From: a virus | Virus record (IMG/VR): IMGVR_UViG_3300033571_012669 | Location: 1-38,182 of that record | Strand: one strand, 5' to 3' | Length of the DNA stretch: 38,182 nucleotides | Shown: one piece after another, positions 2,085 to 38,182 of the stretch | Numbering within the stretch: position 1 is the first letter of the stretch | Layout: the number at the start of each line of letters is the position of its first letter | Made by a program: the position numbers and the translations under genes | Notes under the pieces: generated by a model | The model's database searches: none | Told to the model about the DNA's origin: nothing | Seen by the model: only the letters and a program-made list of their open reading frames with translations

Positions 2085-2109
2085 GCGCCATTGAAGCGTT
2101 TTAGTTTCT
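2085..2109 (-). promoter_or_regulatory. Late promoter-like element for the com-dam unit
   Basis: On the minus strand this reads AGAAACTAAAACGCTT then CAATGGCGC. It matches the family at 9459, 18916, 21943 and 31151, and shares TAAAACGCTT with the endolysin copy. It overlaps the last codons of the reverse transcriptase gene (AGA AAC TAA). Its position before a DNA-modification gene parallels Pmom, one of the four C-activated late promoters of Mu. Activation by the Mor/C-like protein is inferred. Confidence 0.65.
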
Positions 2110-3132
2110 CGCTGGCCCGCGTGGCGGCTTCGTCGGGTAGAAGCGCCTGATCTTGGGAGAGATCAGCTTCACGAGGTCGGGATTGACCTCTTGGATCGTG
2201 CGCCACATGAAGCCGAGGGAATGGGTGTGCTTGGCGTGACCGAGGATGGACGTGACGCTCTCCAACTTGCCCTTTTTAACCGCACGCCGGAACTTGAACA
2301 GGCTGTATTTGCGGATGAACTTCTTGCTGCGCCACGTGCGATAGCCGACGAAATTCACGCCCCGCTTGGTCTTGGCCATCGTCCACTTCGACAGCTCAAG
2401 ATGTAGCTCATCGCGCAGGAAGGCTTCAATGCGCGCCTTGTAGTCGAGGCATTGCTCGCGGGTCAGGTTGAACAGGATGAAGTCATCCACATAGCGACAG
2501 TAGAGCTTGACCTTCAGCTCGCGCTTCACGAAATGGTCGAGCGCGTTCAGGTAGATCAGGGCATAGGTTTGTGAGAGCAGGTTGCCGATGGGGATACCAG
2601 TCGGCTCCGGCAGGTCGGCGAACAGCATCATCATGTCCACCAGCCGCTTGTCCTTGATCTTGCGCTCAATGAGCTTCCGCAGGATGGGACGGTCAATCCG
2701 GTAAAAGAACTTCCGCACGTCAAGCTTGATCAGGTAGCTGTCTGGGCCGCTTTCCCGTAGCGCAGCCTGCGCATAGTCAGAAGCGCAATGTGTGCCTTTG
2801 CCGAGCCGACACGCGAAGCTCTGGTCAATGAAGGCGCGCTCGAAAATCGGCCTGATGACGTGATAGATGGCGTGCTGTACCACGATATCGCCGAACCACG
2901 GCGCGCAAATTTCCCGTGCCTTCGGCTCATAGACGGTGAAGCGGTGGTAGCCGCGCACCGCGTAGCTGCCATCGTGGATGCGCCGATACAGCCAATCCAG
3001 CACCGCGCCCGCTCGCGTGTCGAACCAGTAGCACTGGCGGCGCAGACGCTTGCCGCGCCGCGCCTCGATATATGCGTTGTAGAGAGCCTCGCGCGTGAAG
3101 CACTGCTCGAACAAATTTCCATGCCGCTTCAT
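2101..3132 (-). CDS. Diversity-generating retroelement reverse transcriptase
   Basis: This enzyme copies the template-repeat RNA into cDNA with errors at adenines, so that variable-repeat sequence is replaced (mutagenic homing). The 343-aa protein shows the catalytic Asp of RT motif A in KLDVRKFF (about residue 138). It also has the DGR-type PIGNLLSQ (181-188, where other RTs have QGxxxSP), the active-site YVDD (214-217) and FVGYRTW (from 261). Length and motif order match the Bordetella phage BPP-1 RT. The start at 3132 (MKRHGNLFEQ) is preferred over an in-frame ATG at 3183 because BPP-1-type RTs begin this way. It lies directly downstream of the template repeat. Confidence 0.95.
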   Translation of the reverse strand: MKRHGNLFEQCFTREALYNAYIEARRGKRLRRQCYWFDTRAGAVLDWLYRRIHDGSYAVRGYHRFTVYEPKAREICAPWFGDIVVQHAIYHVIRPIFERAFIDQSFACRLGKGTHCASDYAQAALRESGPDSYLIKLDVRKFFYRIDRPILRKLIERKIKDKRLVDMMMLFADLPEPTGIPIGNLLSQTYALIYLNALDHFVKRELKVKLYCRYVDDFILFNLTREQCLDYKARIEAFLRDELHLELSKWTMAKTKRGVNFVGYRTWRSKKFIRKYSLFKFRRAVKKGKLESVTSILGHAKHTHSLGFMWRTIQEVNPDLVKLISPKIRRFYPTKPPRGPARN

Positions 3133-3443
3133 CGCTGCTCCGAAAAAATGGCCCCGCGCTGGTCTTCGGGCAAGCCCTACCAAAAAGCGCGGAGCCTCTA
3201 TGGAGTTCGCCGCCCTGCATCGCAGGACAGGCAGGACAACCTATCCCTATGGTTCCACTATTCCCTTTCGAGATTTGAGGGGGAAACCGCAGTCCGGGCG
3301 CGCGCCGACGTTGTTGTTAACATTCGTCCGTGGATTGTTGAGATTGCGCGCGAACACCCCGGCGGAAGCACCATTATTGTAGTTGCCACCGACCAGAGGC
3401 AGGCGTGGTCGTAGGTCGCCCTCCAAACACCACAATGGAGCCG
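3133..3443 (-). ncRNA. DGR template RNA region between avd and the RT gene
   Basis: This 311-bp interval carries the template repeat (3291-3405) plus flanks that in known DGRs form the RNA used by RT and Avd for cDNA priming. It contains an open frame (3247-3447, 66 aa) that starts by ATGA overlap with the avd stop and reads through the repeat in the same frame as the target gene (RLPLVGGNYNNGAS). That frame is probably a relic of target duplication. RNA ends and internal priming site cannot be read from the sequence. Confidence 0.75.
3291..3405 (-). repeat. DGR template repeat (TR)
   Basis: This 115-bp segment matches 4046-4160 (offset 755). Of 24 adenines (minus strand), 13 differ in the variable repeat; none of the other 91 positions differ. 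The adenines are concentrated in AAC/AAT and TAC codons that would encode GGNYNN, LNNPRTNVNNN. The 3' end carries a 14-bp G/C-only tract (3294-3307), as at the BPP-1 initiation-of-mutagenic-homing site. No hairpin like the one behind the variable repeat follows it. Confidence 0.97.
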
Positions 3444-3857
3444 TCATTTCTTCTGGCCTTCTTCTTTGGCATCGGCCAGTTCATGCCGTATCCAACCGCC
3501 GATCATGCGACCGAGGTCATCCACCAGCTTGCTGATCGCTTGCCAGCGGTGCGCCTCAACCTCTGCCGCATCACTTGCTGTGCGACCATCCGTGAACTTG
3601 AAATAGCCCAACTCATAGGCCAGAAACAACTGCATCCGCAGTTGCTCGTGCGCTATATCAAGCTGCGTGAGAGTCGTCTTCTTGTGGTATCGCTTTTGCC
3701 CCTCGGTGATGAGGTCGAACACTTCATACGCCGAGTTGCGGATTCTGTTGCAGAGTGCGTATTTTTCGTGGCGCGGAAAGTGGTTTAAGTAGACGTTGAG
3801 GAGCTTCGAAGTCTCGATGAACTTCCGCACCAATGCCGCCTCACGATCCACCGCCAT
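3444..3857 (-). CDS. avd: DGR accessory variability determinant (Avd), four-helix bundle
   Basis: The 137-aa protein is nearly all helical and has the features of the four-helix-bundle (23S IVP-like) family to which Avd belongs: basic, no transmembrane segment, a conserved AYELGYFKFTDG stretch. In BPP-1, Avd forms a pentameric basic barrel that binds RT and template RNA and is essential for cDNA synthesis. Here it sits between target gene and template repeat, the same order as in BPP-1. The ATG at 3857 is preceded by GAGGGGGTGG. The last codons overlap a frame running into the TR. Confidence 0.88.
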   Translation of the reverse strand: MAVDREAALVRKFIETSKLLNVYLNHFPRHEKYALCNRIRNSAYEVFDLITEGQKRYHKKTTLTQLDIAHEQLRMQLFLAYELGYFKFTDGRTASDAAEVEAHRWQAISKLVDDLGRMIGGWIRHELADAKEEGQKK

Positions 3858-3925
3858 TCAAGCCACCCCCTCTTTACAGAATCAGGCGGCATTTTATCGC
3901 GCATGACGTGCTTTCCGAAAGTGCG

Positions 3926-3947
3926 ACCGGGCGCTGATGCGCCCGGT
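3926..3947 (-). other. Perfect hairpin between target gene and avd
   Basis: ACCGGGCGC (3926-3934) and GCGCCCGGT (3939-3947) form a 9-bp perfect stem with a 4-nt loop. It lies in the 177-bp gap between target gene and avd. There is no T-run on either side, so it is a weak terminator at best; it may attenuate avd-RT expression or stabilise the upstream mRNA end. Role not determined. Confidence 0.5.
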
Positions 3948-4008
3948 AAACACCCGCTTGCCTACTCTTGCTGCCCTGACCTTGCGTCGGGGCTTGCTGC
4001 GGCCTGTG

Positions 4009-4032
4009 AGGGGGGCGCTATCGCACCCCCCT
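4009..4032 (-). promoter_or_regulatory. Hairpin/cruciform just downstream of the variable repeat
   Basis: On the minus strand AGGGGGGTGC, GATA and GCGCCCCCCT form a 10-bp stem (one G-T wobble) with a GATA tetraloop, 13 bp past the variable repeat. In BPP-1, a cruciform with a GRNA tetraloop downstream of VR enhances target recognition; GATA fits GRNA. No equivalent follows the TR. It overlaps nothing else, since the target gene stops at 4035. A transcription terminator role is less likely because no T-run follows. Confidence 0.7.
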
Positions 4033-4034
4033 TC

Positions 4035-5090
4035 CTAAGAAACATAGGCCGGGCGCGCGCCGACGTTGCTGTGAACATACGCCCGCGGACTGCTGAGATT
4101 GCGCGCGAACACCCCGGCGGAAGCACCATGAAGGCAGCTGCCACCGACCAGAGGCAGGCGCTCATCGGTCACGTCCAACCAGAAGCCATCACCGCCAAGG
4201 CCGGAGGACGCGACAGGGTAGAGCCCCAAGGACTTCGCAAGGGCCAATGCCGCTGCGCCGACCGGCGTACCGCCGGGGTTGGTCATGCCTTCAAAACTCG
4301 ATCCGGAGGCCCGTACCAGCGTGTAGTTGGTAGTGCCGGATGCCGCATACTTGATCGCATTGGCCGAGCCGGGAGCCACCAGTGTGCCATTGGAGCCGTC
4401 GATGGCCTTCCATAGCGCCGACGCCGCACCTTGGTCTTTGGTGTTGTCCGCCGCGTCGTTGTTCTGGATGATTTGAATTTCTCCAGCTTGCAGGCGCATA
4501 CCACCCACCCACTCCCAGATGTTGCCATTCAGGTCGGCGATGCCGCTGGGCTGGCCGTTATGCCTCCACGATGCCGGGCCTGCGCCGGTGTAGGACTTGC
4601 CATTGCCGGTCGCGCTGCCAATGGCACCACCATCAACGCGCGCTGCCGTTTCCCACGGAGAGCCGACATCTTGACCGTAGTTGTTGTTTCCGCGCGGCAT
4701 GGTGCCGTTCTTCCAGCACCACAGAGCGATAGCCGCCATTTCGGCAGACGTCATCATGTGCCAACCGGGGCCATTGGCTGCTGCCCAGCCACGGAAGGTA
4801 TCGAAGTTCGCGCTGGCGGTCGGCGACACGCCGGGGATAGACAGCAGGTTTCCATCCTTCTGGATACCGATGTGCTGCCCGATGAAGAGTTCGGACTTCT
4901 CGACGCCATTGACAATGAACGCCTCGTGAACGCCGGTACCGAGACTGGCGTCGATGTCCTGCTTGTTGAACTTCGGGATGACGTTCATGTAGCTCGGATG
5001 CCCCGCCGCTGTGTAGAGGACGGTGACAAGCCCGCCGGTCGCTGCCTCGACCGATGCGCGCAGATCGTCTTTGATGAAGATGGTGGTCAT
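4035..5090 (-). CDS. DGR target: variable tail protein with a C-type-lectin (FGE-like) fold
   Basis: Predicted receptor-binding tail-tip protein diversified by the DGR. The 351-aa protein has the formylglycine-enzyme/CLec signature GIADLNGNIWEW at 183-194. The C-terminal RLPLVGG...GASAGVFARNL...NVGARP is typical of DGR variable proteins. Residues about 311-349 are encoded by the variable repeat. Ten residues differ from the template-encoded ones, mostly at template Asn codons. It is not the Bordetella Mtd sequence, only the same fold class by inference. AGGAGAG precedes the ATG at 5090. It follows tail-fibre genes in the same direction and ends with avd, TR and RT downstream. Confidence 0.9.
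   Translation of the reverse strand: MTTIFIKDDLRASVEAATGGLVTVLYTAAGHPSYMNVIPKFNKQDIDASLGTGVHEAFIVNGVEKSELFIGQHIGIQKDGNLLSIPGVSPTASANFDTFRGWAAANGPGWHMMTSAEMAAIALWCWKNGTMPRGNNNYGQDVGSPWETAARVDGGAIGSATGNGKSYTGAGPASWRHNGQPSGIADLNGNIWEWVGGMRLQAGEIQIIQNNDAADNTKDQGAASALWKAIDGSNGTLVAPGSANAIKYAASGTTNYTLVRASGSSFEGMTNPGGTPVGAAALALAKSLGLYPVASSGLGGDGFWLDVTDERLPLVGGSCLHGASAGVFARNLSSPRAYVHSNVGARPAYVS
4046..4160 (-). repeat. DGR variable repeat (VR)
   Basis: Aligned base for base with the template 3291-3405. The 13 substitutions lie at 4048, 4069, 4073, 4079, 4082, 4086, 4090, 4093, 4130, 4132, 4133, 4135 and 4138; every one is opposite a template adenine. A 14-bp G/C-only tract (4049-4062) and a following hairpin mark the homing end. 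It forms the last coding part of the target gene and stops just before its stop codon. Confidence 0.97.
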
Positions 5091-22826: not shown

Positions 22827-23021
22827 ATGAAACCTAAAACGCCGGAAGCCGTCCGCGCGGAGTTCTACCGGAAGGGCGTCACCTTCTCCGAATGGTCAAA
22901 GCGCCACGGCTTCAAATACGAGAACGTCATCGCCGTGATGAACGGGCGCACCAAGTGCCGCCGCGGGCAGGCCCATCAAATCGCCATCGCCCTGGGCCTC
23001 AAGCAAGGAGAGCCCGCATGA
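22827..23021 (+). CDS. Ner-like DNA-binding protein (BcepMu gp16 family)
   Basis: The 64-aa protein begins MKPKTPEAVRAEFYRKGVTF and has the SEWSKRHGFKYENVIAVMNGR HTH, quoted here in part. It resembles the BcepMu gp16 family of small phage regulators. Its position, first rightward gene next to the repressor, is that of Mu ner, which turns down early and repressor promoters. AGGAG lies 6 nt upstream of ATG 22827; an upstream in-frame ATG at 22755 falls in the -35 and is rejected. Confidence 0.85.
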   Translation: MKPKTPEAVRAEFYRKGVTFSEWSKRHGFKYENVIAVMNGRTKCRRGQAHQIAIALGLKQGEPA

Positions 23022-23485
23022 CAAAGACAATCCAGTCCGCGAAGAATGTGCTCGACGTGCTGGCCGCACTGTCAGGGCATTTCGAACACGGCCTTACACC
23101 AACAGATCTCTGCAAGGCCACAGGCTTCAGCCCTAGCAACATCACCCGCTACGTCGCCACCCTCGAAGAAAAGGGCTTCGCCACACGCATCCCCGAAACC
23201 GGACGCATTCGACAGGCCAAGTGGGCTGCCAATGCGCCGCTACCACAAGACACGTTCGCCGAGGAGGTAAAGGCAGCGTTCTACGCCAAAGGCTTAACCA
23301 TCGCCGAATGGGCAAAAGCTAACGGCTACGACAGGCACTACGTCTATTCCGTTCTCAACGGCCAAATCAAAGCCCACAGAGGCAAGGGTTACGAAATCAA
23401 GGCGCATCTTGCCGACTGGCTGAAACGGGAGGGCTTTGCATGCGGTAAATGCGCCGATGTCGGCGCATTTAGGGGTGTTGCATGA
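23018..23485 (+). CDS. Fusion of an IclR-type HTH and a Ner/gp16-like HTH, 155 aa
   Basis: Residues 1-65 (VLDVLAALSGHF, GLTPTDLCKATGFSPSNIT) form an IclR-like winged helix. Residues about 78-130 (EVKAAFYAKGLTIAEWAKANG, in part) repeat the pattern of the preceding Ner-like protein. The gene overlaps that protein's stop by ATGA. The first half is a close paralogue of the next gene, sharing a 35-bp identical run. Its end encodes a palindrome also found in the DUF3102 gene. Probably a regulator of early genes. Confidence 0.75.
   Translation: MTKTIQSAKNVLDVLAALSGHFEHGLTPTDLCKATGFSPSNITRYVATLEEKGFATRIPETGRIRQAKWAANAPLPQDTFAEEVKAAFYAKGLTIAEWAKANGYDRHYVYSVLNGQIKAHRGKGYEIKAHLADWLKREGFACGKCADVGAFRGVA
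23446..23471. repeat. Palindromic repeat, copy 1
   Basis: Two 12-bp arms (TAAATGCGCCGA and its complement) with a 2-nt centre TG lie in the 3' coding end of the fusion HTH gene. The inner 24 bp are identical to 24167-24190. The outermost base pair is T-A here and C-G in copy 2, so pairing is kept by compensation. It may be a binding site or a REP-like element. Confidence 0.7.
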
Positions 23486-23790
23486 GCGCCGCCGCCAAAA
23501 CCAGCCAGACCGCAGGAAAGGTTCTCGATGTGCTGGCCGCGCTGCTCGGCCATTTCGCACACGGCATGACGCCAACCGACCTTTGCAAAGCCACGGGCCT
23601 CGAACCAAGCGCCGTCACGCGCTACGTCGCCACCCTCGAAGAAAAGGGCTTCGCTGAACGCATACCCGAAACCGGACGCATTCGACCCTCCGCGCACCTC
23701 GCACGGCACGCCGTTTCGATTCTCCGCAGCCTCGACGCGGCAGCGGAGCGCCTCGAAAACATGAAATCCCGCATCACGTCCACCAACTGA
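23482..23790 (+). CDS. IclR-type winged-helix protein, 102 aa
   Basis: The protein carries the segment GKVLDVLAALLGHFAHGMTP and then LCKATGLEPSAVTRYVATLE, the HTH of the IclR N-terminus. It lacks the ligand-binding domain of full IclR proteins. It is a tandem paralogue of the first half of the preceding gene (35 bp identical at 23147-23181 and 23620-23654). The C-terminus (SILRSLDAAAERLENMKSRI) is a helix likely used for dimerisation. Starts by ATGA overlap. Confidence 0.75.
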   Translation: MSAAAKTSQTAGKVLDVLAALLGHFAHGMTPTDLCKATGLEPSAVTRYVATLEEKGFAERIPETGRIRPSAHLARHAVSILRSLDAAAERLENMKSRITSTN

Positions 23791-23804: not shown

Positions 23805-24713
23805 ATGGCTCGCAAACCCGCCAAGACCGAGAACGAATCCACCGCCATCGCCGAGATCGACGCCCCCGGCCTGACAGCAGCAGCGGACGCGGCGACCCAG
23901 CTCGCCGTTATCGACCACGAGCGCACCGAGAAGGTCAGGGCACTCGCCACCACGCTTCACTATACCGGCCCGATCCACCCGGATGCACTTGAGGCGGTCG
24001 CTATTGAAGCGCAGCGCCACATCCACGCCGGACTGTTCGCGCTCGGCACGTCGCTCATCCTGCTGCGCGAGAGCTGCGAGCACGGCGATTTCCTTGACAG
24101 GCTGGATCGCATCGGCGTTGAACCACGGGTAGCGCAGAGATCGATGCAGCTCGCGCGCAAGTTCTCAAATGCGCCGATGTCGGCGCATTTGGAAAACCTC
24201 GGCAAATCCAAGCTGCTGGAACTCATCGTTCTAGACGATGAGCAGATCGAGGAGCTGACCGCGACCGGGCAGACAGGCGAACTGTCACTCGACGACTTGG
24301 CAACCATGAGCGTCAAGGACTTGCGGAACACGATCCGCAGCCTGCGGGGGGATGTCGAAGCCAAAGACGCGGTGCTGGCAAAAACGAACGAAAAGCTCAC
24401 CAGGCTGCAAGTCCAACTCAAGAAGAAGGTGGTGGCCGACACCGATTGGCCGGACGCACTGGAACCCATCAGCGAGCAGATCGCTGCCGCTGGCAGGAAG
24501 GTCGCCACCGGCATGAGCGAACTCGAAACCTGCCGCATCACGTTGTTCGAGACGATGCAGAACATTCCCGATGAAGAGCGCCCGAAATTTGAAGCCGCGC
24601 TCGCGCACGTCGGCGAGTTCTACGTGCAGGCACTCCAGCAGGCCGAGAAGCTGGTTTCCAAAGAACGAACCATTTTCGACAAGTCGCTCGGCGCTTACAC
24701 GCCAGAAGCCTGA
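23805..24713 (+). CDS. DUF3102-type early phage protein, 302 aa
   Basis: Helical protein with the DUF3102 block (EAQRHIHAGLFALGTSLILL, FLDRLDRIGVEPRVAQRSMQ), followed by a coiled coil (about residues 165-210) and a C-terminal helical part. DUF3102 proteins accompany transposases in Mu-like and BcepMu-like phages; the function is unknown, DNA binding is plausible. The palindromic repeat copy 2 lies in the segment encoding NAPMSAHLEN (about residue 122). AAGGAGAAG precedes the ATG. Confidence 0.8.
   Translation: MARKPAKTENESTAIAEIDAPGLTAAADAATQLAVIDHERTEKVRALATTLHYTGPIHPDALEAVAIEAQRHIHAGLFALGTSLILLRESCEHGDFLDRLDRIGVEPRVAQRSMQLARKFSNAPMSAHLENLGKSKLLELIVLDDEQIEELTATGQTGELSLDDLATMSVKDLRNTIRSLRGDVEAKDAVLAKTNEKLTRLQVQLKKKVVADTDWPDALEPISEQIAAAGRKVATGMSELETCRITLFETMQNIPDEERPKFEAALAHVGEFYVQALQQAEKLVSKERTIFDKSLGAYTPEA
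24166..24191. repeat. Palindromic repeat, copy 2
   Basis: Same 24-bp core as 23447-23470, inside the DUF3102 gene, with outer pair C-G in place of T-A. It is read in a different frame from copy 1 (NAPMSAHLE here, KCADVGAF there), so conservation is at the DNA or RNA level rather than protein. The two copies are 720 bp apart, upstream of the transposase. Confidence 0.7.
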
Positions 24714-24733: not shown

Positions 24734-26557
24734 ATGGCCGCACTCGCCCCCGATTTGATGCAAGAACTGTTCGCCTTGCGTGACCGCATCGCAGCGGCTC
24801 CGCACGGCGGTGCGACTGAGCTGGTACATCAATTCGCCAGTCTCATCGGCAAGAATCCCTCGACGATCTACACATGGTTGCGTGTCCACGCGGGCTACAA
24901 GACCGAGCGCAAGAAGCGGGCGGATGCGGGCAGCACCGCCCTCCCCCACGAGACGTTGCACTTCATTGCGGCTGCGAAGCGCGAGGGCATCCGTGGCAAC
25001 GGCAAGGCAACGCTTCCCACAGCGGTCGCCATGAACATCGCCCACACCAACGGCATTGAAGTGCCCGTGTCGGAAGGTCGCATCAACGCCCTGCTCCGTG
25101 CCAACCGCATGGACACCAAGGCGCAGCTCGCCGCCCGCAATCACATCACGATGCGAAGCCTGCACCCGAACCACATGCACCAGATAGACCCGTCGCTGTG
25201 CCTCATCTACTACACGCCGAAGGGTCAGGCCATCATGCGCGATGAGGAGTTCTACAAGAACAAGCCAGCGAGCATGGACAAGGTGCGCCTCAAGGTGTGG
25301 CGCTACGTTCGCTATGACCACGCCAGCGGCAGCATCGACGTTCGTTACTTCGAGGCTGCGGGCGAAAACCAGCACAGCCTCTTCGAGTTCTTGCTCTACA
25401 CATGGGGGCAGCAAGCAAGCCGCGTATCGCATGGCGTTCCGCGCATGTTGCTGTGGGACAAGGGTAGTGCCAACACCAGCTTCGCCATCCGCAACCTGCT
25501 CGACGCGCTGGGCGTGGATCACGAGACACATGCGGTCGGCCACTCGTGGGGCAAGGGTGGCGTCGAGCAGGGCAACAACCTTGTCGAGACGCACTTCGAG
25601 AGCCGCCTGCGCTTCGAGCCTGTCGAGACCGTTGAGCAGCTCAATGCCGCCGCTGCCGCGTGGGTGCGCGACTACAACGCTAACGCCATCGAGCATGTGG
25701 ACTGCCGCCTCACCCGCGCCAGCGGCCAGCCGATGGTGCGCGATGAACTCTGGCAACTCATCATGCGGCATCCCGGCGCGCTGGTGCAGTTGCCGCCGCG
25801 AGACGTGTGCCAGTGGTTCATGTCTGGACAGGAACTCACGCGCAAGGTACGCGACCTCGCCATCAGCTTCTCACACCCGGAGCTTGGCCGCTCGGCTCGC
25901 TACGACTTGAAGCCGTGGGCTGAGTTCCTTGGCAACGGGCAGACCCTGCATGTCACGCCGCTACTCATGCAACAGGGCGCGCTACGCATCGAAATCGAGC
26001 GTCTCGGAGCCGAGCCGCTGCTCGTGCAGGTGATGCCGGAAAGCGAGTTCGATGCCTACGGTCGCCCGCTCTCCGCGCCTGTCGCTGGCGAGGAATACGC
26101 CCGCGCACCGGCCACCGCAAGCGAGCGCGCCGCCAACACGCTCTCTGCTGCTGCGTGGGGTGATGGCACAACGGTGGATGACGCCGAGAAGAAGCGCGCG
26201 GAGCAGGCACGGCCTTTCGGCCACCTCAACGACGGCAAGGGCATCGTCGCTCACTCGCACCTCGGCAAAATCGATCTGCCGCAGCGCCTTGTTCCACATG
26301 CTGGCGAAGTGCAAACGCCACAGGTGCAGAGCCTGCAAAGCAAGGCTGTATCGGTGCAGATCATGCTCACCGTGCCGGAGGCCGTCCGCAGCATCAAGGA
26401 GCGCCTCGGCGATGCCGCGCCCGCCGACCTCTACACGCAGATCGCCACGGCATTCCCGGCAGGCAACGTGCCGCAGTCATGGGCAGACCAGTGGGGTGCG
26501 CAAGTGGCGACTGGCACACACGGCGGCAACGTCACTGAACTGCGGAGGATCAAGTGA
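24734..26557 (+). CDS. DDE transposase (Mu A / BcepMu TnpA-like)
   Basis: The 607-aa enzyme cuts the prophage ends and joins them to target DNA, for integration and replicative transposition. An N-terminal helical DNA-binding part is followed by the rve core. Catalytic residues are D152 (HQIDPS), D242 (LLWDKGSANTS) and E278 (SWGKGGVEQGNN), a D-35-E spacing. The C-terminal part after about 420 likely contacts the ATPase. A short gap separates it from DUF3102; its stop overlaps the ATPase start. It is closer to TniA/BcepMu-type than to classical Mu A by the GKGGVE motif. Confidence 0.95.
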   Translation: MAALAPDLMQELFALRDRIAAAPHGGATELVHQFASLIGKNPSTIYTWLRVHAGYKTERKKRADAGSTALPHETLHFIAAAKREGIRGNGKATLPTAVAMNIAHTNGIEVPVSEGRINALLRANRMDTKAQLAARNHITMRSLHPNHMHQIDPSLCLIYYTPKGQAIMRDEEFYKNKPASMDKVRLKVWRYVRYDHASGSIDVRYFEAAGENQHSLFEFLLYTWGQQASRVSHGVPRMLLWDKGSANTSFAIRNLLDALGVDHETHAVGHSWGKGGVEQGNNLVETHFESRLRFEPVETVEQLNAAAAAWVRDYNANAIEHVDCRLTRASGQPMVRDELWQLIMRHPGALVQLPPRDVCQWFMSGQELTRKVRDLAISFSHPELGRSARYDLKPWAEFLGNGQTLHVTPLLMQQGALRIEIERLGAEPLLVQVMPESEFDAYGRPLSAPVAGEEYARAPATASERAANTLSAAAWGDGTTVDDAEKKRAEQARPFGHLNDGKGIVAHSHLGKIDLPQRLVPHAGEVQTPQVQSLQSKAVSVQIMLTVPEAVRSIKERLGDAAPADLYTQIATAFPAGNVPQSWADQWGAQVATGTHGGNVTELRRIK

Positions 26558-27771
26558 TGGCCACCGCGCTAAACCGCCTTATCGCCCGCCTCGGCCTCAA
26601 GCAAGCACACCTTGCGAGGTCGCTCGGGATCAGCACCGGCACATTCGCCGATCTGGTCAATCACGGCAAGTGGCCGAAGCGTCAAGCCGCTGCGTTGCGC
26701 CGCGACATCGAAGACAAGTTGCGCCGTGCCGGAGCCAGCACTGCACAGATTACGCGGGCGCTCTCGCCCGCACAAAAGCAAAACGCCGCAGAGCGTTCCA
26801 CCGCCGCGCCTACCGACGCGGACATTCGTCAACCAGCCAAGAAGGAAACCGACATGCTTCTACAAAAGCAAACTCTGACCATGCCCACGCGCAAGCATTT
26901 CGGGCTGGCCGCTGATCCGTTCGCCAACGACGTGACGCAGGCGAGCGACGTGTTCATCTCTCAAGACATTCGCTTCGTGCGCGAGACGCTGTGGCAGAAC
27001 GCCAAACACGGCGGGCTGCTCGCACTTGTAGGCGAAAGCGGCAGCGGCAAGTCCACCGTGGTGGCGGATTTCAAAGACCGCCTCGCTCGCGAAGGCCGGG
27101 ATGTTCTCATCATCGAGCCAAGCGTTCTCTACATGGAAGAAAACGACAGCAAGGGCAAGACGCTCAAAAGCGCGGCCATTGTTCAGGCCATCATCGCCAC
27201 CGTCGCGCCGAGCGTGCCCCCAAAACGCGATGCAGAGGCGCGTGCGCGGCAAGTGCAGCAGTTGCTCACGGCAGGGCACCGCGCAGGCCAGCGGCATGTG
27301 CTGTTAATTGAAGAGGCGCACTGCCTTCCTACCGCCACGCTCAAGCACCTCAAGCGGTTCGCGGAACTCAAGGACGGACTGCACCCCCTGCTCTCCATCG
27401 TGCTGGTCGGCCAGCCAGAGCTGCGCAGCCGCCTCGCGGTGAACAACGCCGAGGTGCGCGAGGTGGCGCAGCGGTGCGACATCGTTGAACTGCCACCACT
27501 GGATGCGAGTCTCGGCGAATACCTCAAGTTCAAGCTCCAGCGCGTCGGCGCAGAACTCGGAAAGGTCATCAATGCCGAGGGCATTGAAGCCCTGCGCGAG
27601 CGCCTGACATTCGCTCGGAGAACGGGCAGCGCCAAGTCTGCGCAGGTGATGCAGCAGTGGGTGAGCCTTGCCTATCCGCTGGCCGTCGCCAACGCTCTGA
27701 CTGCCTCCATGAACCTCGCCGCGAGCCTCGGCGCTCCGGTGGTTGACGCCGCCATCGTGAAGGAGGCGTGA
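26557..27771 (+). CDS. Transposition ATPase (Mu B / TniB-like, ExeA-type AAA)
   Basis: The 404-aa target-capture ATPase has an N-terminal XRE-type HTH (LIARLGLKQAHLARSLGIST, residues 8-27), a linker, and an AAA+ domain with Walker A GESGSGKST (159-167) and Walker B HVLLIEEAH (247-255). This HTH-plus-AAA order is that of Mu B. An internal ATG at 26854 with AAGAAGGAAAC upstream could also give an ATPase-only form. Confidence 0.93.
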   Translation: MATALNRLIARLGLKQAHLARSLGISTGTFADLVNHGKWPKRQAAALRRDIEDKLRRAGASTAQITRALSPAQKQNAAERSTAAPTDADIRQPAKKETDMLLQKQTLTMPTRKHFGLAADPFANDVTQASDVFISQDIRFVRETLWQNAKHGGLLALVGESGSGKSTVVADFKDRLAREGRDVLIIEPSVLYMEENDSKGKTLKSAAIVQAIIATVAPSVPPKRDAEARARQVQQLLTAGHRAGQRHVLLIEEAHCLPTATLKHLKRFAELKDGLHPLLSIVLVGQPELRSRLAVNNAEVREVAQRCDIVELPPLDASLGEYLKFKLQRVGAELGKVINAEGIEALRERLTFARRTGSAKSAQVMQQWVSLAYPLAVANALTASMNLAASLGAPVVDAAIVKEA

Positions 27772-28605: not shown

Positions 28606-29122
28606 ATGGTTCCGCGCAGAAATTGCAACTGGCTTGCAGAAGCTGCTGGCGCTGCGCTTGCAGGGAACGCCGCCAGAAGATGCCATCGTCGGCACTGCCG
28701 AGGTGTGGCTCGAAGCCTTGTGGCCGGACAGGACGTGGGCGGAACACATCGACCGCATCCGCATCCAGCAGGCTTTCCGCGTGCTGTTTCGCATCTGCGA
28801 CCGCTGGCCGACACCCAAGCTGTTCCTGGACAACCTCGGCAGCAGGCCGCAACCCCAAGCACTCCCCTCCCCCCCGGCTTCGCCGGAGGTCATTGCTCGC
28901 AACAAGGCCAAGTTGAAGGAGCTGATGGAGCAAATGGCCAAGTCACTCAACTCAACCAGAAAGGAGCCTAAACATGGCAACCAAGACGAAAGCAAAGGCA
29001 GCGCCGTGGGCGTGCCAGACCAAGGAACAAACGCAGGAGGCAATCCGCGCACTCGGCGACGCGCAGCGCGAACTGACGCGACTGGAGACCACGATCAACG
29101 ACCAGATCGCGGCGATAACTGA
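28592..29122 (+). CDS. Early-region protein, 176 aa, with long overlap into gam
   Basis: Residues 1-120 are a plausible globular phage protein (WFRAEIATGLQKLLALRLQG, IDRIRIQQAFRVLFRICDRW). From about residue 125 the frame is inside the Gam gene and the sequence becomes low-complexity and polar. The overlap is 149 bp, unusual for this operon. A -1 shift near 28960 would end the protein at TAA 28969-28971, just before the gam start. So either the C-terminal tail is non-functional or there is a frameshift. Confidence 0.65.
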   Translation: MEADEWFRAEIATGLQKLLALRLQGTPPEDAIVGTAEVWLEALWPDRTWAEHIDRIRIQQAFRVLFRICDRWPTPKLFLDNLGSRPQPQALPSPPASPEVIARNKAKLKELMEQMAKSLNSTRKEPKHGNQDESKGSAVGVPDQGTNAGGNPRTRRRAARTDATGDHDQRPDRGDN

Positions 29123-29483
29123 CGCGAACAAGGATCAGGTGGAAGCGTTGAAGGCACGCATCCAGACGCTGATTGACGGCATCCATGTGTGGTGCGAGGC
29201 CAATCGTGCCGCGCTGCTGGTTGGTGGCGGCAAGACGGCCAACCTCACCACAGGCTCGGTCAAGTGGCGTGAGCGCCCGCCCAGCGTTTCCATCCGCAGC
29301 GTCGAGAAGGTGCTTGAAACGCTGCGCTCTCTTGGCCTTGGCCGCTTCATCCGCAATAAGGAGGAGCCGAACAAGGAGGCGATGCTGGCCGAGCCGAAGG
29401 CTGTGTCCGGTATCGCCGGGATATCCATCGTGACCGGCGTCGAGGATTTTGTCATCGAGCCGTTTGAGGTTGAGGTGGCGTGA
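28974..29483 (+). CDS. gam: Host-nuclease inhibitor Gam (Mu Gam-like)
   Basis: The 169-aa protein binds double-stranded DNA ends and protects them from RecBCD, and is related to Ku. Motifs: long N-terminal coiled coil (EAIRALGDAQRELTRLETTI in part), TANLTTGSVKWRERPPSVSI, LGRFIRNKEEPNKEAML and GISIVTGVEDFVIEPFE. AAAGGAG lies just upstream of the ATG at 28974. Confidence 0.93.
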   Translation: MATKTKAKAAPWACQTKEQTQEAIRALGDAQRELTRLETTINDQIAAITDANKDQVEALKARIQTLIDGIHVWCEANRAALLVGGGKTANLTTGSVKWRERPPSVSIRSVEKVLETLRSLGLGRFIRNKEEPNKEAMLAEPKAVSGIAGISIVTGVEDFVIEPFEVEVA

Positions 29484-33573: not shown

Positions 33574-35090
33574 CCGAGGCTGTTCTTCTGCCCTATCAGC
33601 AGGCGTGGCTTGCCGACAAGTCGCAGGTGCGCGTGTGCGAGAAGTCGCGCCGTGTCGGTCTGTCTTGGGCAGAGGCCGCGCTTTCGACGCTGGAAGCGGC
33701 GAAGGCAACAGGACAGGACACTTGGTATCTCGGCTATTCGCAAGACATGGCGCAGGAATTCATCCGTGACTGCGCGTGGTGGGCTGGACACTATCAACTT
33801 GCCGCCACAGCGATGGAGCAGGTTGTTCTCGATGATGAAGACCGCGATGTTCTCGCCTACCGGATCAACTTCGCGTCCGGCTACCGCATCACGGCGCTGT
33901 CCAGCAGCCCGCGCAACCTTCGCGGCAAGCAAGGCCGGGTGGTGATTGACGAAGCGGCCTTTCACCCCGATCTGCCGGAACTGCTCAAGTCGGCCTTCGC
34001 GCTGCTGATTTGGGGCGGATCAGTGTCCATCGTCTCCACGCATTTCGGCGTGGACAATCCGTTCAATGAACTTGTGAACGACGTGCGTGAGGGCAAGAAG
34101 CCCTACAGCGTCCATCGCATCACCTTCGACGAAGCCATCGAGCAGGGCTTGTGCCGCCGCGTGTTCGCAGCCAGCAAGCGCGACTGGTCGCCGCAGGCCG
34201 AGGCAGCATGGGCAGAGGAAATCCGCGCCATCTACCGCCCCAATGATGCCGAGGAACTGGACTGCATCCCATCGAACAGCAGCGGCGCTTACCTGTCGCG
34301 GGCACTCATCGAACAGCGCATGACCGCCGACGCGCCGGTGCTGCGTTACACCTGCCCAGCCGACTTCGAACAGCAGCCCGACACGGTGCGAGAGGCTCAT
34401 GCACTCGACTTCCTTGAGCGAGAGGTCGCGCCGTTGCTCGACACGCTGCCCAAGACGGCGCGCAGCAGCATCGGCATGGACTTCGGGCGCTCCGGCGACT
34501 TGTCGGTACTGATTCCGCTGCTGGAAGGTCAGGCGCTGGAACGGCGCAGCCCATTCATCGTCGAGATGCGGAACGTGCCTTTCCGCCAGCAAGAGCAGAT
34601 CGTGTTCTGGATCGCCGACCGCCTGCCGCGTTTCAACTTCGGCGCGTTCGACGCACGCGGCAACGGCCAGTATCTCGCCGAGGTCGCCATGCAACGCTAC
34701 GGCGCGAATAGCATCGGTCAGATCATGCTCACGCAGCAGTGGTATCTCGAAAATTTCCCTCGCCTGAAAGCGGCTTTTGAAGACGGGACGCTGGCGGGCA
34801 TCCCGCGCGACCGAGACATCCTCGACGATCTGCGCGCGGTCAGCGTCATCAAGGGCGTTCCGCGCATCCCTGAAGGCAAGACCAAGACCGGCGCAGGCCA
34901 GCAGCGCCACGGCGATGCGGCGGTGGCGCTGTGCTTGGCATGGTTCGCCACGTCGCAGGGCGGTGGCCTGATCGAATATCTGGAAGTGCCGCTGCGTTCG
35001 GAGCCGAGAGACATTCCGCGAGGCGGCAATTTCATGCGTCCACCGTCCGATCTGGACTTCCAGATTGACGAAGACCGACGCGCATGGTGA
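33570..35090 (+). CDS. Terminase large subunit (Mu gp28-like)
   Basis: The 506-aa packaging motor has an N-terminal ATPase with Walker A-like CEKSRRVGLSW (23-33) and Walker B VVIDEAAF (124-131), and a C-terminal nuclease with SSIGMDFGRSGDL (D304). It would cut host DNA next to the right end and package about one headful. Length is normal for the family. Confidence 0.95.
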   Translation: MTEAVLLPYQQAWLADKSQVRVCEKSRRVGLSWAEAALSTLEAAKATGQDTWYLGYSQDMAQEFIRDCAWWAGHYQLAATAMEQVVLDDEDRDVLAYRINFASGYRITALSSSPRNLRGKQGRVVIDEAAFHPDLPELLKSAFALLIWGGSVSIVSTHFGVDNPFNELVNDVREGKKPYSVHRITFDEAIEQGLCRRVFAASKRDWSPQAEAAWAEEIRAIYRPNDAEELDCIPSNSSGAYLSRALIEQRMTADAPVLRYTCPADFEQQPDTVREAHALDFLEREVAPLLDTLPKTARSSIGMDFGRSGDLSVLIPLLEGQALERRSPFIVEMRNVPFRQQEQIVFWIADRLPRFNFGAFDARGNGQYLAEVAMQRYGANSIGQIMLTQQWYLENFPRLKAAFEDGTLAGIPRDRDILDDLRAVSVIKGVPRIPEGKTKTGAGQQRHGDAAVALCLAWFATSQGGGLIEYLEVPLRSEPRDIPRGGNFMRPPSDLDFQIDEDRRAW

Positions 35091-35102
35091 TGGAGAACAT
35101 GC

Positions 35103-36707
35103 ATGGCGATTCTTGACCAATTTGGCAAGCCCATAGACGTCGACAATTTCGACGAACCGCAAACCTCGCGGCTGGTCAGCCTGCATCAGCAGGTGGCCGG
35201 GCATCCAGCGCGCAACCTCACGCCTGCGCGCCTGAACGCAATCCTTGAATCGGCAGAGAACGGCGACCTGATCGCGCAGCACGAGCTTTTCCGCGATATG
35301 GAAGAGCGCGATGGTCATGTGTTCGCCGAACTCTCCAAGCGCAAGCGAGCAGTCATCAAGCTCTCGTGGGATGTGCTTCCGCCTCGGAACCCGAGCAAGG
35401 AAGAGGAGCAGTCCACGGCCTATGTGAAAGAATTGCTGCTCGACATGCCCGACCTCGAAGACCTGTTCTTCGATGCGCTCGATGGCGTAGCGCACGGTTT
35501 CTCCGCTGTTGAGTTGGAGTGGCGGCGCGTGGGCAGCGACTGGACAATCATCCGGGCGCAGCATCGTCCGCAGACGTGGTTCCAGCTTGACCGCGAGCAG
35601 CACACCACACTGAACCTGCGCGATGGCACGCTCGACGGTGCGCCGCTGCGTCCCTTCGGCTGGCTGCTGCACATCCACAAGGCAGCGTCCGGCTACACCT
35701 CGCGCAGCGGCTTGGGGCGTGTTCTGGTCTGGCCTTACCTGTTCAAGCACTTCTCGGTCGGCGACCTTGCCGAGTTCCTCGACATCTACGGCCTGCCGCT
35801 TCGCATCGGAAAATATCCGTCGAATGCCAGCGACACCGAGAAAGCCACGCTGTGGCGTGCTGTAGCGGGCATCGGCCACAACGCGGCTGGCGTCATCCCG
35901 GCGAGCATGGCGATTGATTTCCAAGAGGCCGCGAAGGGTTCTGAAAAGCCCTTCGAGACGATGATCAAGTGGTGCGAGCAGACGCAATCGAAGGCCATTC
36001 TCGGCAGCACGATGACCAGCACCACCGAAGCCACCGGCCTCGGCTCTGGCGTCGCCGAAATCCACAATGAAGTGCGGCTCGATATCCGCGATTCTGACTG
36101 CAAGCAGCTCGCAGGCACACTCACCCGCGACCTGATTTTTCCGCTGCTGGCGCTGAACAAGGGATGGGCAGACTTCCGCCGCTGCCCGCGCCTCGTGTTC
36201 GACGTGACCGAGGGCGAAGACATCAAGACCTATGCCGACGCGCTGCCCAAGCTGGTCGGCATCGGCATGAAGATTCCCACGCAGTGGGCGCACGAAACCC
36301 TACGCATTCCCCTGCCATCCAGCGATGAAGAGGAAGTTCTGTCCGTAGCCAAGCCTGCTACCACGCCGCCAGAGCCTGAACCGGAACCGAAGGTGAAGAA
36401 GAAAGCCGATGCGAAGGCTGCGTTGCAGGCCGCACTACGTGATGCCGCAACTGATTTCCCTGATCAAGACGCGCTGGATGGCGCGCTGGAAGGTCTCGCA
36501 CCCGCCTTGCAGCCGCAGGTAGTGGCTTGGCTCAAGCCTGCGCTTGATGCGCTGGCGAAAGCCAGCGGCCCGGAAGCGGCGCTGGCACTGCTGGCGAGCG
36601 AGAACCCGCTGACCGATGACGCGGTGCTGGTGGAAGCCATCGCCCGCGCCCTGTTCGTGACAGAACTGCTCGGCGCGGAAGGCGTTCGACAGGAGTTGAA
36701 GCCGTGA
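35103..36707 (+). CDS. Portal protein (Mu gp29-like, DUF935)
   Basis: The 534-aa protein carries DUF935 blocks: FRDMEERDGHVFAELSKRK, FDALDGVAHGFSAVELEW and ATLWRAVAGIGHNAAGVIP. It forms the dodecameric channel for DNA. The C-terminal about 100 residues are Pro/Glu/Lys-rich then helical. Follows the terminase by 12 bp and overlaps the F-like gene by 4 bp. Confidence 0.95.
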   Translation: MAILDQFGKPIDVDNFDEPQTSRLVSLHQQVAGHPARNLTPARLNAILESAENGDLIAQHELFRDMEERDGHVFAELSKRKRAVIKLSWDVLPPRNPSKEEEQSTAYVKELLLDMPDLEDLFFDALDGVAHGFSAVELEWRRVGSDWTIIRAQHRPQTWFQLDREQHTTLNLRDGTLDGAPLRPFGWLLHIHKAASGYTSRSGLGRVLVWPYLFKHFSVGDLAEFLDIYGLPLRIGKYPSNASDTEKATLWRAVAGIGHNAAGVIPASMAIDFQEAAKGSEKPFETMIKWCEQTQSKAILGSTMTSTTEATGLGSGVAEIHNEVRLDIRDSDCKQLAGTLTRDLIFPLLALNKGWADFRRCPRLVFDVTEGEDIKTYADALPKLVGIGMKIPTQWAHETLRIPLPSSDEEEVLSVAKPATTPPEPEPEPKVKKKADAKAALQAALRDAATDFPDQDALDGALEGLAPALQPQVVAWLKPALDALAKASGPEAALALLASENPLTDDAVLVEAIARALFVTELLGAEGVRQELKP

Positions 36708-38095: not shown

Positions 38096-38182
38096 GAAGC
38101 GGAAGTGCCAGACCATGGCGTTACCACCGAGCTTGCCGGTGATGACCAGGCCGACCACGCAGGCGGCCAGCAACCAGTGGAA
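38096..38182 (-). CDS. Host cytochrome b561-type membrane protein fragment
   Basis: On the minus strand the flank reads FHWLLAACVVGLVITGKLGG then NAMVWHFRF and is cut at the prophage end. This is the first transmembrane region of the cytochrome b561/b-type Ni-Fe hydrogenase or YdhU-like family, including the heme-binding His in FHW. It is a different gene from the one at the left flank. Confidence 0.65.

Follow-up and report, generated by a model that had tools for sequence, protein, structure and literature searches.

The window analysed here, a stretch of 38,182 nt of viral DNA, carries near its left end a reverse transcriptase gene beside two similar 115-nt repeats. The locus raises the question of whether these parts make up a complete diversity-generating retroelement (DGR), whether its target gene has been rewritten from the template, and what kind of phage carries it.

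Genes and repeats of the retroelement

The target gene, its variable repeat (VR), avd, the template repeat (TR) and the reverse transcriptase (RT) gene follow one another in this order on the minus strand. The three ORFs (RT 2101-3135, avd 3444-3857, target 4035-5090) are intact, and the target-avd-TR-RT order of Bordetella phage BPP-1 that the first-pass annotation had reported on one strand was confirmed. The RT (344 aa, YVDD and IGNLLSQ motifs) matched RVT_1 (E 8.2e-17), phrog_1423 (E 8.3e-92) and, over nearly its full length, the BPP-1 RT (PDB 8ub7, E 2.6e-51), with which it shares 37.6% identity. Its translation most likely begins at the ATG at 3135 (MKRHGN...); in the alignment these residues pair with the N-terminus of the BPP-1 enzyme. 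The accessory variability determinant encoded by avd (137 aa) matched Pfam bAvd (PF22296, E 2.6e-16) and phrog_3206, 'Avd protein of DGR' (E 3.6e-23). We put the probability that the element is a complete BPP-1-type DGR in a Mu-like phage at about 96%. A D12-class adenine DNA methylase is encoded at 853-1710, immediately downstream of the DGR; the same gene lies there in Pseudomonas phage Bise.

The target (351 aa) is encoded by the last gene of the tail cluster, after the tail-fibre-like genes, and matched phrog_2889 (E 4.5e-120) and the tail family phrog_5302 (E 4.6e-12). The Pfam search alone gave no recognised family for it, and the fold was therefore settled by searching PDB sequences and by modelling. 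In sequence the protein is closest to TaqVP (PDB 5vf4; phmmer E 1.1e-83). The AlphaFold model, built on 35 aligned sequences (pLDDT 88.5), matched the same structure in Foldseek (E 2e-42, TM 0.86-0.87, 42-44% identity over the structural alignment), and the next matches were Mtd variants with much weaker scores. The predicted fold is thus a TaqVP-type, FGE-subtype C-type lectin with the VR at the extreme C-terminus (codons 311-349 of 351), and the earlier expectation that fold prediction would give a C-type lectin was borne out (TM 0.87). The contrast drawn at the same time between an FGE/C-type lectin target and Mtd does not hold: Mtd, like TaqVP, belongs to the FGE subtype of C-type lectins (PMC6328139). 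What distinguishes the window phage is its single-domain TaqVP-type target, a difference in domain organisation and not in fold. A tail or receptor role is putative, based on gene position and the moderate tail-family match.

The TR (3291-3405, minus strand) and the VR (4046-4160, minus strand) form a gapless 115-nt alignment in which 13 positions are mismatched. Every mismatch falls on a TR adenine (13/24, against 0/91 at other positions; hypergeometric p ~5e-11), and the VR carries G at seven, C at four and T at two of these sites. A local alignment with base-blind scoring returned the identical segment and the identical 13 mismatches, indicating that the adenine-only result is not a product of scoring. 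The count reported at first pass was therefore exact, but one mismatch is of a different kind. At 4048 the TR reads GGACT and the VR GGCCT; an equal change, (C/G/T)GACT to GCCT, was present in 61 of the 97 related TR/VR pairs, where the final template adenine is always C in the VR. Random mutagenesis would be expected to leave mixed bases there, so the constant C is a fixed IMH/IMH* mark, which brings the mutagenised set to 12/23 adenines instead of 13/24. Read in the frame of the VR, the TR has its mutable adenines in 10 AAY codons and in one TAC, one CCA and one ACG codon. Mutagenesis of these adenines cannot reach a stop codon, and about 9e12 proteins are possible.

Signals around the repeats

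The IMH-like region, at 4035-4064 on the minus strand, comprises the fixed C (TR GAC to VR GCC) and the GC-rich 3' end of the VR (4049-4064). Directly after the target stop codon lies a hairpin or cruciform (4009-4032, minus strand), AGGGGGGTGC GATA GCGCCCCCCT, with a 10-bp stem and a GRNA loop. Hairpins with at least 7 Watson-Crick pairs were found at the corresponding site in 38 of the 97 related loci, and the loops of all 38 fit GRNA. BPP-1 requires a hairpin 3' of the VR, and phage DGRs have 7-10 bp stems with GRNA loops at 4-34 bp from the VR (PMC3240598). The GATA-loop hairpin of the window matches this requirement.

A spacer RNA conserved in relatives was recognised between TR and RT (3136-3290, minus strand), with a covarying stem at approximately 3152-3194. 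The stem was analysed by RNAalifold on an alignment of relatives (A2), with 500 shuffles and slid windows as controls. Pairing was kept in 94% of the cells of the alignment (34-54% in the slid controls), compensatory changes were present in 8 of the 14 pairs, and none of the 500 shuffles reached an equal score. The Rfam search of the window, spacer included, returned no family. The BPP-1 spacer serves to bring in RT-Avd and to prime synthesis of the cDNA (PMC12875486). Hairpin and spacer stem are two expected DGR parts beyond those named in the first-pass annotation.

The biochemical steps of homing, and the binding of a receptor, may be drawn for this phage by analogy with BPP-1. RT and Avd would bind the avd-TR-spacer transcript, and the RT would make a cDNA of the TR, misincorporating opposite adenines. 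The cDNA would then land at the GC/IMH end and the GATA-loop hairpin that follows it, and would replace the VR in the 3'-terminal part of the tail-cluster gene. Such a cycle could rewrite up to 12 codons (10 AAY, one TAC and one ACG) for residues of the putative binding face of the TaqVP-like C-type lectin, and would most likely serve to change which receptor the phage tail recognises.

Homing in the lineage and in close relatives

The repeats were compared with those of related phages. The closest relative with both repeats (L003) has a TR that differs from the window TR at 12 positions, none of them an adenine. At 12/12 of these positions each VR bears the base of its own TR, and at the 79 non-adenine positions shared by the two TRs the VRs do not differ (0/79). 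The VR was therefore recopied from the TR after the two lineages separated. In eight more distant relatives, the VR likewise followed its own TR at 100% of the non-adenine differences. Together with the adenine-only divergence, the tracking in L003 upholds the earlier claim that the VR has been rewritten since it was last identical to the TR.

Among related loci, the 82 distinct TR/VR pairs show a difference at 56% of the TR adenines, compared with 2.0% of C, 0.5% of G and 2.4% of T. Adenine-only diversity was also present among otherwise identical phages. Three relatives with an identical TR and 0/900 upstream differences (L095, L097 and L098) have VRs that differ at 2-19 of 31 adenine sites and 0/84 other positions. 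In a second group with an identical TR (L115, L117, L118 and L120) the VRs differ at 12-15 of 23 adenine sites and 0/91 other positions; the three members with an identical 900-nt upstream stretch (L115, L117 and L120) differ at 13-15/23 adenine sites and nowhere else, and L118, compared over only 216 nt of upstream sequence, gave an equal pattern. One template spans host genera: a single TR is common to phages of Pseudothauera (L043), Pigmentiphaga (L041) and Burkholderia (L042), which have three different VRs. A second record (L012) is identical to the Pseudothauera phage over the compared stretch. Variation of the VR at adenine positions with an invariant TR was thus seen in close relatives, and the exact-pattern TR/VR scan of viral contigs found no near-identical record of the window phage itself.

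One contig showed a different arrangement. Its record L022 (the same contig is also L082 and L134) is identical to L021 and L023 in the VR and 900 nt upstream, while its TR departs from theirs at 8 sites, which all lie in the 5' half and are 8/8 adenines in L021 (p ~1e-5). This would reflect either mutagenic homing into the template itself or an assembly in which reads of VR variants were mixed into the TR.

Two imperfect copies near one another might in principle be a plain duplication that diverged through ordinary mutation or a base-specific deaminase. This reading has a negligible probability, as the substitution pattern already refutes it: adenines became G, C and T (7, 4 and 2), unlike the product of a deaminase, the changes follow TR adenines and not any VR base, and RT and avd adjoin the repeats. 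The adenine-only mismatches and the repeated adenine-directed homing in relatives support adenine-directed mutagenic homing, the cause proposed at first pass. An assembly artefact, in which metagenomic reads with mixed VRs were merged into a chimeric VR, is very improbable. The virus record is possibly metagenomic and the mosaic-looking TR of L022 gives a precedent in a related contig; however, such mixing presupposes VR diversity in the sample and hence still implies a DGR, the window VR is in frame, and the isolate phage Bise shows an equal arrangement.

A recently silenced relic, with intact-looking parts but with homing stopped in this phage, is somewhat less remote than these two readings and still improbable. 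A single genome cannot reveal present activity, and the scan that gave no near-identical record with another VR leaves room for it. Against this, the RT, Avd and TR are intact, as are the spacer stem, the IMH and the hairpin, no non-adenine TR/VR mismatch has accumulated, the VR followed 12 non-adenine TR changes since the split from L003, and close relatives are clearly diversifying. A complete DGR with mutagenic homing is the reading we keep.

The carrier phage and known systems

The phage genome (38,009 bp, 87-38095, no strand assigned) is bounded by TGAA...TTCA, and CGATAAA repeats lie 12 and 35 nt inside both ends. These paired repeats are probably transposase sites to which the enzyme would bind. 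A MuA-like transposase (24734-26557, plus strand; phrog_310, E 3.3e-70) is 87% identical to that of Bise and forms a block (24734-27771) with a MuB-like protein (26554-27771, plus strand; phrog_296, E 9.1e-67). A Mu Gam-like end-protection protein is encoded at 28974-29483 (plus strand; phrog_491, E 1.9e-62), and terminase, portal, head and contractile-tail genes are also present in the window. As judged from MuA, MuB, Gam and the terminal repeats, the carrier is confirmed as a transposable Mu-like phage.

The 'Mu-like prophage' of the first-pass annotation stands for its first half only. About 87 nt of bacterial DNA flank the phage on each side (1-86 and 38096-38182) and come from two unrelated genes, one cytochrome b561-like (a weak match, E 0.027) and one thiamine-pyrophosphate (TPP) enzyme-like (E 5.6e-7). 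A 5-bp target duplication was sought at both phage ends and was absent (GCTTC vs. GCACC). With unrelated flanks and no duplication, the contig gives no evidence of a single, cleanly integrated prophage. Phage DNA that was packaged, or that came from several insertion sites, would fit the flanks better, and assembly effects are possible. Replication of a Mu-like phage places copies at many sites of one cell, and the DGR could rewrite each of them separately. One infected cell would then release a swarm of tail variants, and the two unrelated flanks would represent DNA of such a multi-site population; we consider this scenario unlikely.

The closest isolate to the window phage is Pseudomonas phage Bise (OR683401.1; L038; P. 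aeruginosa host), which shares the unusual genome order and the target-avd-TR-RT-methylase block (RT 83% and target 68% identical). The TR of Bise differs from the window TR at 14 aligned positions, and its own TR/VR pair is adenine-only (9/25 adenines, 0 other). The Bise DGR (34615-35444) is unannotated, with the TR under a 'hypothetical protein' call on the opposite strand, and our literature search found no paper naming this phage. A very clean DGR is thereby added to the transposable phages related to Bise, and DGR activity becomes testable in a laboratory phage, since Bise is a cultured relative with an equivalent element.

BPP-1 (mtd-avd-TR-brt) resembles the window in gene order, Avd, the GC/IMH end and the GRNA-loop hairpin 3' of the VR. 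Unlike BPP-1, whose target is the multidomain trimeric Mtd, the window phage has a TaqVP-like target and MuA/MuB. The earlier statement that carrier and target depart from the classic case is correct for these two features, but the combination was already known in several Mu-like phages. The Thermus aquaticus prophage DGR (TaqVP, PDB 5vf4, PMC6328139) has the same target fold, a similar target sequence and the avd-TR-RT order, while its host belongs to a different phylum and its target shares the 42-44% identity given above; prophage genes of that host are partly annotated as Mu-like (PMC4605624). The Bacteroides hankyphage, also transposable, encodes RT and Avd and has a TR together with a VR located in a C-type-lectin target (PMC6199706), and its DGR activity has been measured (PMC12135933); it differs from the window phage in its host and in a target of more than 2200 residues. 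Faecalibacterium phage Mushu (PMC5883640) and YPCBV-1 (PMC9769972) are further Mu-like or transposable DGR phages, distant in host and sequence. Mu-like phages with DGRs have been reported since at least 2013 (Toussaint, as cited in PMC5883640), and TaqVP-like targets proved common in a survey that counted 57 hypervariable homologues of the T. aquaticus protein (PMC6199706). DGRs in Mu-like phages and TaqVP-type targets are thus both known already, and the window element adds another.

The right half of the genome is inverted relative to Mu. Misassembly was considered as the source of this order and was rejected, as the order in Bise is identical. The search for tRNA genes in the window gave none. 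Two copies of a 24-bp near-palindrome, AAATGCGCCGATGTCGGCGCATTT, lie within coding sequence of the early operon (23447-23470 and 24167-24190); no copy is expected by chance, and a single copy was present in each of four other viral contigs. Two adjoining, similar regulator-like genes at 23019-23790 are apparently a tandem duplication, and both match one region of Bise.
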